Origin: Negativicoccus massiliensis
GTDB lineage: Bacteria; Bacillota; Negativicutes; Veillonellales; Negativicoccaceae
Assembly (NCBI GenBank): GCA_900155405.1
Contig: LT700188.1
Location: 124,001-188,000, forward strand
Direction of reading: 5' to 3'
DNA: 64,000 nt
A model generated the notes under the pieces. It had not been told where the DNA came from and did not search any database. It worked only from the letters and a program-made list of their open reading frames with translations. A program made the translations under genes and the position numbers. Below are positions 10,850 through 26,144 of this stretch, in pieces (within the stretch, counting starts at the first letter, position 1; each line of letters opens with the position of its first letter).

Positions 10850-11666
10850 TCGCAGCTGGACGCTCGGCGACGCGACACAGGTGATGGGGATCTTGAATTT
10901 GACGCCGGATTCATTTTCCGACGGCGGGCAATGGTTCGATTTGGATCGGGCGCTGGCGCATGTGACGGAAATGGAAGAAGCGGGCGCGGATCTGATCGAT
11001 ATCGGCGGCGAATCATCGCACCCGGGTTTCGTGCCGGTGGGCGCGGATGAAGAGATCGCGCGCTTGGAGCCGCTTCTCGCGCCGGTGTTGGCGCGCGCGA
11101 CGGTGCCGACGTCGATTGACACGTTCAAGGCGAAAACGGCGGATTGGGCGTTGCGTCAAGGCGTGGATATGATCAATGATATTTGGGGATTGCAGTACGA
11201 TCCGGAAATGGCGGCGGTGGCGGCGTACCACCAATGTCCGATGATCGTGATGCATAACCAAGACGGCACGGACTATGAAGGCGATATTCTGGATGCGATG
11301 ACGGAATTTTTTGAACATTCGCTGAGTCTCGCGCAAAACGCGGGCGTGAAAGAAGAAAATATGATTCTCGATCCGGGCATCGGCTTCGGCAAGACGGCAC
11401 TCCAAAATATGGAAGTGCTGCGCCGTTTACCGGAACTGATCGAACGGTTACCGTATCCGTGGCTTTTGGGCACGAGCCGCAAAGGTTTCATCGGCCAGGC
11501 GCTGGATTTGCCGGTGACGGAACGGATGGAAGGCACGGCGGCGACCTGCCTTTACGGACAAATGGCGGGGTGCAAGATTTTGCGCGTGCATGATGTGGCG
11601 CCGATCGTGCGCATGACGAAGATGATGGACATGATTACAGGGAAGCGACCGTATGGATCAAATTGA
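10815..11666 (+). CDS. folP: Dihydropteroate synthase
   Basis: Joins 6-hydroxymethyl-dihydropterin pyrophosphate to p-aminobenzoate; the sulfonamide target. I use the ATG at 10815 (MAEQRTYVLK) because GGGAGG precedes it; an in-frame ATG 36 bases upstream lacks such a site. 283 residues. Motifs: GILNLTPDSFSDGG near the N terminus, SIDTFKA, INDIWG, MHNQDG, ILDPGIGFGKT and LLGTSRKGFIG, covering the pterin and phosphate sites. It overlaps folE by 35 bases and folB by 14, so translation is probably coupled. Confidence 0.95.
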   Translation: MAEQRTYVLKNNRSWTLGDATQVMGILNLTPDSFSDGGQWFDLDRALAHVTEMEEAGADLIDIGGESSHPGFVPVGADEEIARLEPLLAPVLARATVPTSIDTFKAKTADWALRQGVDMINDIWGLQYDPEMAAVAAYHQCPMIVMHNQDGTDYEGDILDAMTEFFEHSLSLAQNAGVKEENMILDPGIGFGKTALQNMEVLRRLPELIERLPYPWLLGTSRKGFIGQALDLPVTERMEGTAATCLYGQMAGCKILRVHDVAPIVRMTKMMDMITGKRPYGSN

Positions 11667-18524: not shown

Positions 18525-18830
18525 ATGAACAAAACAGAATTGATTGCTAATGTTGCAGAGATGTCCGAAATTACGAAAAAGGACGCCGAAAAAGTCGTAA
18601 AAGCGATGTTTGAATGCATCAGCGAAACCTTGGCTAAAGGCGAAAAAGTTCAGATCATCGGTTTCGGTACATTCGAAGTTCGCGAACGTAAAGCTCGTGA
18701 AGGTCACAACCCGTCGAATCCGACGCAGAAAATTAAAATTCCGGCTTCCAAGAGCCCGGCTTTCAAAGCTGGTAAACAGCTCAAAGAACGCGTTAACGTA
18801 AAACCGGCTAAAAAAGCTCGCAGAAAATAA
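18525..18830 (+). CDS. hup: HU-family nucleoid protein
   Basis: Small basic DNA-bending protein. 101 residues, slightly longer than HU (about 90) owing to a Lys/Arg tail ([10 protein letters not shown]). [20 protein letters not shown] is the HU N terminus, [20 protein letters not shown] the beta-arm entry, and [15 protein letters not shown] the second half. Strong ribosome site (AGAGGAGGG) upstream and a strong terminator after it. Confidence 0.96.
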
Positions 18831-18952: not shown

Positions 18953-18981
18953 TTGACACTCGGTTTTACCTGTGCTACTAT
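18953..18981 (+). promoter_or_regulatory. Promoter of the cobalamin riboswitch transcript
   Basis: TTGACA (18953-18958), 17 bases, TACTAT (18976-18981), with TG one base before the -10. A near-consensus sigma-70 promoter with predicted start near 18988, just before the riboswitch. Confidence 0.85.
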
Positions 18982-18989
18982 ATACACAA

Positions 18990-19219
18990 GTTCAAATTGA
19001 TCTATAGGTGCCGAAAGGCCATAGAGGGAAGCCGGTGCGAATCCGGCACGGTCCCGCCACTGTAAAGCGGAGCGAGTTCCAAAAGCCACTGGGAAACCGG
19101 GAAGGCGGAGCAAGCGATGATGCGAAGTCAGGAGACCTGTCCATATGCAGCACCCGTCAGACTCACGAGCGATGAGAAGGGGAGATTTGTTCTCTTCGCG
19201 TTGTGAGAGAACATTTTTT
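18990..19219 (+). promoter_or_regulatory. Cobalamin (B12) riboswitch with terminator, no downstream coding gene
   Basis: Conserved cobalamin aptamer elements are present in order: GCCGGTGCGAATCCGGCACG, GGTCCCGCCACTGTAA and the B12 box GAAGTCAGGAGACCTG. The aptamer spans about 18995-19160. It is followed by a hairpin (GTTCTC at 19189-19194, GAGAAC at 19207-19212) and a T run at 19214-19219, as expected of a transcription-terminating switch. The next plus-strand gene is a tRNA 390 bases on, behind a second terminator, and the next CDS is convergent. No cobalamin gene is adjacent. Aptamer identity is firm; the regulated output is unknown. Confidence 0.93.
19189..19219 (+). terminator. Expression-platform terminator of the B12 riboswitch
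   Basis: GTTCTC/GAGAAC stem with a 12-base loop, then ATTTTTTC. It begins about 30 bases after the aptamer. Confidence 0.75.
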
Positions 19220-19427
19220 CTTGGTAACTTGCTCTTAGGGGCAGTTATATAAAAGGATCTCAGGATCCGGTAACAAGATATATTGGCCTATGTTTTGTTA
19301 CATCCATCTCCTTGTGAAGAGGATACTGACAGGGAACAGTATTCTCTTCCCTCCTTTGTTAATCATGTCATGTGTATAATGATGATTCATCCCCCCACCC
19401 GGCAGAGAAAACTCTGCCTCTTTTTTT
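19220..19427 (+). ncRNA. Possible B12-controlled structured noncoding RNA
   Basis: Read-through of the riboswitch terminator gives about 200 nucleotides ending at a strong terminator (GGCAGAG at 19401-19407, CTCTGCC at 19412-19418, TCTTTTTTT). I find no start codon with a good ribosome site. The RNA can fold: GTAACAA near 19270 with TTGTTAC near 19295, and a 13-bp stem GAAGAGGATACTG (19316-19328) with CAGTATTCTCTTC (19337-19349) and loop ACAGGGAA. The long stem and lack of a gene suggest a functional RNA. This is inference. Confidence 0.4.
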
Positions 19428-19605
19428 GTCATATTATAGAGAAGTAAAAGAGATGATTTTTATTGCTATGCGATATAAAAAGCAAATGCGGAAGATACGA
19501 TAGAGGATTGAACGGCTTGGAAACCCCAAATATTGACGAATGATGAATTCGTAGTATACAATAATCGCATACCCTTTGAACGCGGTTTATTTCCGCGAAA
19601 TGCTT

Positions 19606-19689
19606 GCGAGAGTGGCGGAATGGCAGACGCACCAGATTTAGGATCTGGCGCCTTCGGGCGTGGGGGTTCAAGTCCCTTCTCTCGCACCA
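19606..19689 (+). tRNA. tRNA-Leu (anticodon UAG)
   Basis: 84 bases with an encoded CCA. Acceptor GCGAGAG pairs with CTCTCGC; the anticodon stem CCAGA/TCTGG closes loop TTTAGGA, giving UAG. The variable arm GCGCCTTCGGGCGT is long, as in class II tRNAs, and the T loop is TTCAAGT. Confidence 0.97.
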
Positions 19690-19940: not shown

Positions 19941-20402
19941 TTATTGCGGTTTGACTAAGACGCCGAACGGGGTTTCTTTATAGACGGTGGTGTCCAGCAC
20001 TTCGGTCGCGTAGCGATCATAATCGAAATGTTTGTATATATATTCCAATGTTTCTTTATCGTCGGGATCTTTCACCAAGGATGTTTTTGGCATTTCCTGT
20101 AAAATATTGTACGCGGCGCCGTCTAAAGTGCTTTTGTAGAAGAAATCGAAAAGACAGGTGACCATCATGTCATCCGCTTCGGCGGGGTCCATGTCCTCAT
20201 CGGGATAGATGTGCAGGTAGGCCAGCCATTCGGCGAGCAGGCGATCATCGGTGAGCAGCGCTTCCGACAAGTGCTCCTTATGCGTTTCACGGTAGGCGGC
20301 AAGCGCTTTCATCAGGTTGGTCTCGTCGACGGTGAGATCGTGTTCGGGAACGGTGTCTTGCACGTACTTACGAGCGAGTTCGGTCAGATTATCTTGGTTC
20401 AT
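19941..20402 (-). CDS. Acidic protein of unknown function
   Basis: 153 residues; I do not recognise the family. It is strongly acidic, with no signal peptide, membrane segment or cysteine-rich motif apart from one Cys in DDMMVTCLFDFFYKSTLDG. The predicted fold is mostly helical. The start is well supported by AAAGGAGG seven bases upstream on the minus strand. An extended -10 (TGTTATAAT) lies on the minus strand at 20472-20480. It stands alone between a tRNA and pyc, with a terminator at its end, so it is probably a real monocistronic gene. Confidence 0.8.
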   Translation of the reverse strand: MNQDNLTELARKYVQDTVPEHDLTVDETNLMKALAAYRETHKEHLSEALLTDDRLLAEWLAYLHIYPDEDMDPAEADDMMVTCLFDFFYKSTLDGAAYNILQEMPKTSLVKDPDDKETLEYIYKHFDYDRYATEVLDTTVYKETPFGVLVKPQ

Positions 20403-25851: not shown

Positions 25852-25880
25852 GATTACTTCACAAGGAGGTGAAAGAACAG

Positions 25881-26144
25881 ATGTTAAAAATTCGTTTAAC
25901 CCGTCGCGGCGCGAAAAAAGTCCCGTTCTACCGTATTGTAGTTATGGAATCTTCGCTCCCGCAGAGTGGTCGTCCGGCCGACACGATCGGTTACTACGAC
26001 TCGGTCAAACAACCGGCGGAACTCAAAATTGACGAAGAAAAAGCGTTGGCATGGCTTGCCAAAGGCGCCCAGCCGACGGATACCGTACGCACATTGTTCC
26101 GGCAACAAGGCATCATGGCTAAATTTGCCGAACTGAAAAAGTAA
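25881..26144 (+). CDS. rpsP: 30S ribosomal protein S16
   Basis: 87 residues, the usual length. [20 protein letters not shown] is the conserved N terminus, then [21 protein letters not shown] take the ATG at 25881 because AAGGAGGTGA lies ideally upstream; an in-frame GTG at 25869 is inside that ribosome site. It begins the ribosome-maturation run with the KH gene, ylqD, rimM and trmD. Confidence 0.97.

Follow-up and report, generated by a model that had tools for sequence, protein, structure and literature searches.

A conserved structured RNA behind B12 riboswitches in Dialister and related bacteria, with the methylmalonyl-CoA mutase start as a predicted target

The only B12-switched regulatory RNAs known to us come from Listeria and Enterococcus, and the enterococcal EutX shares with the listerial Rli55 the plan of a noncoding RNA led by a B12 riboswitch. 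The RsaE/RoxS-type small RNAs of Firmicutes carry C-rich single-stranded stretches able to cover Shine-Dalgarno sites; we know of none with a B12 riboswitch. According to PMC8079631, Rli55 is a noncoding RNA behind a B12 riboswitch; it is produced when B12 is absent and prevents a B12-dependent pathway from being switched on. The same source describes AspocR of Listeria monocytogenes as an antisense RNA to pocR that is ended early by its B12 riboswitch, the full RNA formed without B12 repressing a B12-related function at the level of translation, apparently in trans. The target of ANTAR proteins is given in PMC3369931 as dual hairpins with hexaloops carrying A at position 1 and G at position 4. 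For Veillonella, PMC9600662 and PMC7160235 tie a cis-acting B12 riboswitch to the methylmalonyl-CoA mutase gene mutA. In a literature search with limited coverage of subscription papers, no publication turned up that describes noncoding RNAs led by B12 riboswitches in Dialister or its relatives.

The window, a 64-kb stretch of a single-contig genome of 1.36 Mb (G000), contains a locus that resembles Rli55 and EutX in that a noncoding RNA follows a B12 riboswitch. A full-length cobalamin aptamer (18989-19158, plus strand) passed the covariance model Rfam RF00174 with 102.1 bits (E 2.1e-24) against a curated score threshold of 31.5 bits; it is the sole B12 riboswitch detected in G000 and is predicted to bind B12 and to switch expression. 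A terminator scan placed terminator 1, the riboswitch expression platform, at 19188-19220 (stem 19188-19213, then a T-run) and terminator 2, the end of the noncoding RNA, at 19401-19428 (stem 19401-19418, then a T-run), both on the plus strand, with 4 terminator-like sites in the scan against 0.6 expected. Sequence reading revealed a possible antiterminator helix at 19176-19197 of the same strand, formed by GAAGGGGA (19176-19183) and TTCTCTTC (19190-19197); the latter is the 5' arm of terminator 1, and its pairing with GAAGGGGA would exclude that terminator. A helix resembling the antiterminator is also present in the relative G027 (locus L005). The noncoding RNA body, recognized by conservation and folding, comprises several hairpins at 19221-19418 (plus strand), and the stretch 19214-19420 folded better than 200 of 200 dinucleotide shuffles (z -3.7). 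The ORF list has no plus-strand ORF of at least 60 aa in 19160-19600; on the minus strand, three ORFs (62, 80 and 74 aa) overlap this area. Downstream of terminator 2 follow a tRNA-Leu (19606-19689) and a convergent CDS on the minus strand (19941-20402). The first-pass annotation, which had read here a full B12 aptamer with its terminator, about 200 structured bases with a second terminator and no gene, then a tRNA and a convergent CDS, was thus borne out on these points.

Its further claim of a near-consensus promoter held in part. A site scan found a promoter-like TTGACA-17-TACTAT with TG at 18953-18981 (plus strand), and similar sites were read upstream of the riboswitch in relatives; however, since the scan gave only 3 promoter-like sites against 1.9 expected, it is position that supports the call. 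Upstream of the site lies a small gene read as HU (18525-18830), followed by a hairpin of its own. From this layout, and by analogy with known B12 riboswitches, B12 would switch the RNA off. The proposed arrangement is similar to that of AspocR in that a riboswitch-terminated noncoding RNA would in its full form, without B12, repress a B12-related function. AspocR differs in that a long stretch of it lies antisense to its target gene, whereas the RNA described here would reach distant genes through short segments and has repeated hairpin modules; in the ORF list no full-length gene lies opposite 19221-19418, and the short minus-strand ORFs only border it.

Of 40 genomes searched with a 761-base query around the site, 27 gave a match, for the most part to the aptamer, and the downstream stretch was also matched in G001 (the sister species of the window species), G002 and G003. 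The region 19220-19400 is conserved in relatives, where a common plan was observed: one or more riboswitches with their terminators, an RNA of one or more modules, and a closing terminator. Each module combines small hairpins with a C/U-rich segment and a long hairpin whose loop ends in GGGAA or GGGAAA; a C-rich tail often follows. On the plus strand of the window, the C/U-rich segment lies at 19302-19315 (with CCATCTCCTT at 19304-19313) and is a candidate pairing site on the grounds of complementarity; it is followed by a 13-bp hairpin with the conserved GGGAA loop at 19316-19349 (loop ACAGGGAA at 19329-19336) and by the C-rich tail CCTCCTTTG at 19350-19358, a second candidate pairing site that fits the start of pyruvate carboxylase. 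Alignment of 24 of the 27 hairpin units (the second units of G002 and G003 and the second hairpin of G015 were omitted) displayed two-sided changes at 12 of 12 pairs and a covariation score of 0.709, compared with 0.267 in a shuffled control that is biased in favour of covariation, the hairpins having been selected as hairpins. In the four genomes of the window's own family (f1), aligned by sequence alone, conservation was highest from CATCTCCTT through the hairpin; two-sided changes occurred at 8 of 27 predicted pairs, part of the predicted structure falling in poorly aligned columns. None of the families of Rfam 15 reached its gathering score on the noncoding RNA of the window or of 12 relative loci searched at E up to 1. 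C-rich stretches are shared with RsaE/RoxS-type RNAs, but the RsaE model scored 16.5 bits on the window RNA, as opposed to a cut-off of 79.

A covariance model of the hairpin matched 13 of 61 genomes of the order, namely 4 of 4 in f1, 9 of 12 in a second family (f2) that includes the carrier Dialister succinatiphilus YIT 11850, 0 of 17 in f3 and 0 of 28 in f4. A search of 250 genomes of the class returned the same 13 carriers and no others. All 27 hairpin matches listed lie shortly downstream of B12 riboswitches at this locus, and no copy of the GGGAA hairpin was found elsewhere in the 61 genomes of the order or the 250 of the class. Two pattern matches, on a Flavobacteriales contig and a Tropicimonas contig, were put down to chance. 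Since the same layout recurs in 13 genomes, the observation itself goes beyond chance. Within f1 and f2, methylmalonyl-CoA mutase genes are present in 13 of 13 carriers, and all three non-carriers (G006, G009 and G024) have neither the mutase nor a B12 riboswitch. In f4, mutase and B12 riboswitch are found in 28 of 28 genomes but the noncoding RNA in none, and therefore mutase and riboswitch alone do not predict the RNA.

Two aptamers over the cut-off occupy the locus in 10 of the 13 carriers, and one in the window, G003 and G027. In the sister G001 the two aptamers stand in tandem; comparison showed that the 5' part of the window aptamer corresponds to copy 1 and its 3' part and terminator to copy 2. 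The window aptamer thus appears to be a fusion of two tandem aptamers like those of G001, one copy having probably been lost by recombination. Its outer stem, read by eye, may be mismatched. In G027 (L005), the aptamer over the cut-off is accompanied by a decayed second one, judged by eye, after the first riboswitch. By eye, the minus strand after the same tRNA-Leu in G001 (L032) is integrase-like, unlike that of the window, and this tRNA may be an insertion site.

B12 riboswitches usually precede genes, and this general rule, together with the loss of one aptamer in the window species, could speak for a remnant, that is, a leader whose former gene was lost and whose remainder decayed. On the other hand, the RNA is conserved, with covariation, across 13 genomes from two families and is closed by a terminator, and no B12-related gene, which would point to gene loss, comes after the second terminator in those relatives whose loci were read. 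The next gene 3' of that terminator varies (tRNA, glutathione peroxidase, a copper-amine-oxidase-N protein, a protein with an RNase PH domain or one without Pfam match), so that the RNA does not serve any single gene as its leader. We give the remnant hardly any credence.

Within the hairpin, GGGAA varies least: it is nearly invariant across modules and occurs up to several times per RNA. Its role may be to bind a protein, to protect the RNA or to give the neighbouring segment its shape; no partner was found for the loop (19329-19336 and its equivalents in relatives). A loop-to-segment pseudoknot (AAGGGA with UCCCUU), read by eye, was rejected, being confined to some modules and absent, for example, from G004, G000 and G002. 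The constancy and repetition of the loops would suit a trap for some protein that reads them, as CsrB traps CsrA, and we take ACAGGGA to resemble a CsrA site. However, CsrA was detected in 0 of 40 genomes, and the hairpin is not copied elsewhere in the genomes, which leaves no shared mRNA sites of that form; a protein trap of this kind is, in our judgement, quite unlikely.

The lack of further hairpin copies also bears on the proposal of the first-pass annotation that an orphan B12 riboswitch controls a noncoding RNA which, like Rli55 and EutX, traps an ANTAR antiterminator when B12 is absent. Such a sponge would share the B12 logic of the locus. Moreover, ANTAR-type proteins, which had been suggested as something to look for elsewhere in the genome, occur in 40 of 40 genomes, and G000 has a REC-ANTAR regulator (L076:3726-5749) adjoining a histidine kinase gene. 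Nevertheless, many of the genomes with ANTAR are without the RNA, and the dual hexaloops by which Rli55 and EutX trap the protein are missing from these RNAs: scanning for paired A1/G4 hexaloops yielded none in 13 of 13. We consider the sponge highly improbable. What stands of the proposal is the riboswitch-led RNA, conserved and structured in 13 genomes; the mechanism borrowed from Rli55 and EutX does not.

The data agree better with another remark of that annotation, that a C-rich stretch could pair with ribosome sites. In G000 one operon encodes succinate CoA-transferase (the first gene), the large and small subunits of methylmalonyl-CoA mutase, MeaB, an epimerase and methylmalonyl-CoA decarboxylase. 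The mutase large subunit has a distinctive start, which is AGGAGGAUGAUGAAC throughout f1 (four genomes) and AGGAGGAAGAUGAAC in those eight genomes of f2 that were read; the RNA segments beside the hairpins read UUCAUCUCC, UCAUCUUCC, UCAUUUUCCUCC or CAUCAUCCUCC. The mutase start was ranked by the duplex energy of contiguous helices along with 60 control starts of the window genome (61 in total) in 11 of the 13 carriers; of the other two, G001 hardly differs from G000, and a large-subunit gene of this type is missing from the G030 assembly. The target had been spotted before testing, after about nine genes had been viewed, and the segments were cut by eye. The mutase start ranked first of 61 in 8 of the 11 genomes (G003, G012, G021, G036, G004, G018, G027 and G033), second in G002, fourth in G015 and 21st in G000. 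Out of 1000 dinucleotide-shuffled segments, those that fitted as well numbered 7 in G002, 2 in G003, 3 in G012, 7 in G036, 2 in G015, 2 in G004, 14 in G021, 0 in G027, 4 in G018, 12 in G033 and 228 in G000; out of 302 pooled starts with good ribosome sites, the numbers as good were, in the same order, 6, 1, 1, 1, 5, 1, 4, 3, 3, 2 and 80. Complementarity to the mutase start was therefore above chance in 10 of the 11 genomes tested, related genomes that could count as no more than five or six independent cases, and was not so in the window's own G000.

Long unbroken matches to the mutase start span 11 pairs in G003, 12 in G004, G021 and G018, and 15 in G027. The paralogues mutA and mutB of G012 fitted worse (-15.8 and -15.3) than the mutase start (-22.8). 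When segments were swapped between genomes, the majority fitted the start of their own family better, the exceptions being G012 and G036, which fitted the f1 start better, and G018, which fitted the start of G003 slightly better. Predicted folding left 16 of 20 segments less paired than the average of their own RNA and 4 more paired; the mean unpaired probability of CATCTCCTT in the window was 0.68. The mutase start is similar in 13 f4 genomes read, all without the RNA, which suggests that the RNA came to fit a pre-existing mutase start.

C-rich segments that resemble the anti-Shine-Dalgarno sequence might pair with Shine-Dalgarno sites generally, the mutase being incidental or one of several targets, and in G000 the best fits are indeed to rpsP (15 pairs), adk and pyruvate carboxylase, all better than that to CoA-transferase. 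However, other genes of the mutase operon with good ribosome sites rank, as a rule, far below the mutase, and the mutase match recurs across genera, which the other top matches do not. A small RNA with other or many targets is in our view unlikely. Among the candidates discarded, CoA-transferase as a common target fits in f1 but ranks 8 to 34 of 61 in f2. The exact 11-mer AAGGGAGATGA, taken as a target in four f2 genomes, has 11 sites in three of the four, three of them at the RNA locus itself, and the 8 loci read included no convincing start of a known gene. Sites of AAAGGAGATG numbered 9 in G002 and 12 in G003.

Our preferred reading, which we hold with slightly better than even confidence, is that B12 controls a regulatory RNA whose pairing with mRNA silences the mutase, or in f1 also CoA-transferase, when B12 is low. 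With ample B12, the riboswitch would stop transcription at terminator 1; with little B12, read-through would give the full noncoding RNA. Its segments beside the GGGAA hairpins would then cover, by base pairing, the ribosome-binding site of the mutase large subunit, which depends on B12, or in f1 also pair with succinate CoA-transferase, and the resulting block of translation would prevent the enzyme from being made without its cofactor. In many relatives (e.g. G012, G003 and G025) a second mutase, mutAB, lies behind a B12 riboswitch of its own. At low B12, these relatives would switch mutAB on through that riboswitch, the other mutase being silenced by the RNA. The Veillonella mutA riboswitch acts in cis on its own gene, whereas here a second mutase without a riboswitch of its own would be controlled in trans. 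More tentatively, and with some doubt, we suggest that the RNAs form a new modular family behind tandem B12 riboswitches of Dialister-type and related bacteria, running an isozyme swap in which low B12 silences one mutase and turns mutAB on, and that the repeated modules could set its strength. Because the B12 riboswitches of G000 and G001 occur at this locus only, the window species would retain just the silencing arm, the swap being possible in relatives; with a sole B12 riboswitch found in the window species, all sensing of B12 by riboswitches of this class would pass through the RNA. If true, common anaerobes would join the bacteria with B12-switched RNAs; the RNA would be a different one, it would act in trans through short pairing, and its target would be direct, namely a cofactor-dependent enzyme of propionate formation. 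Furthermore, a riboswitch that turns transcription off with B12 would act in the opposite sense on the enzyme, which would be made only with the cofactor present.

In the window species the target is uncertain, and the mutase operon is our preferred guess. The segment of G000, ACAUCCAUCUCCUUG, pairs with the mutase start in three short helices, no better than chance, and fits the CoA-transferase start with 11 pairs (25 of 1000 shuffles and 20 of 302 starts being as good). In this genome, AAGGAGATGG occurs upstream of just two genes, adk and CoA-transferase. Only one B12-binding domain (PF02310) was detected in G000. A second mutase-like gene of 559 aa lies at G000:C1:675711-677246. The start of a small gene read as rpsP (25868-26144) can form the 15 unbroken pairs with the RNA, kept in G001 via a G-U pair. 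Finally, in both G000 and G001 the CoA-transferase operon has a leader (minus strand of L080, about 11181-11610) with a terminator-like hairpin and with the 11-mer TTCTCTTCCCT in common with the noncoding RNA.
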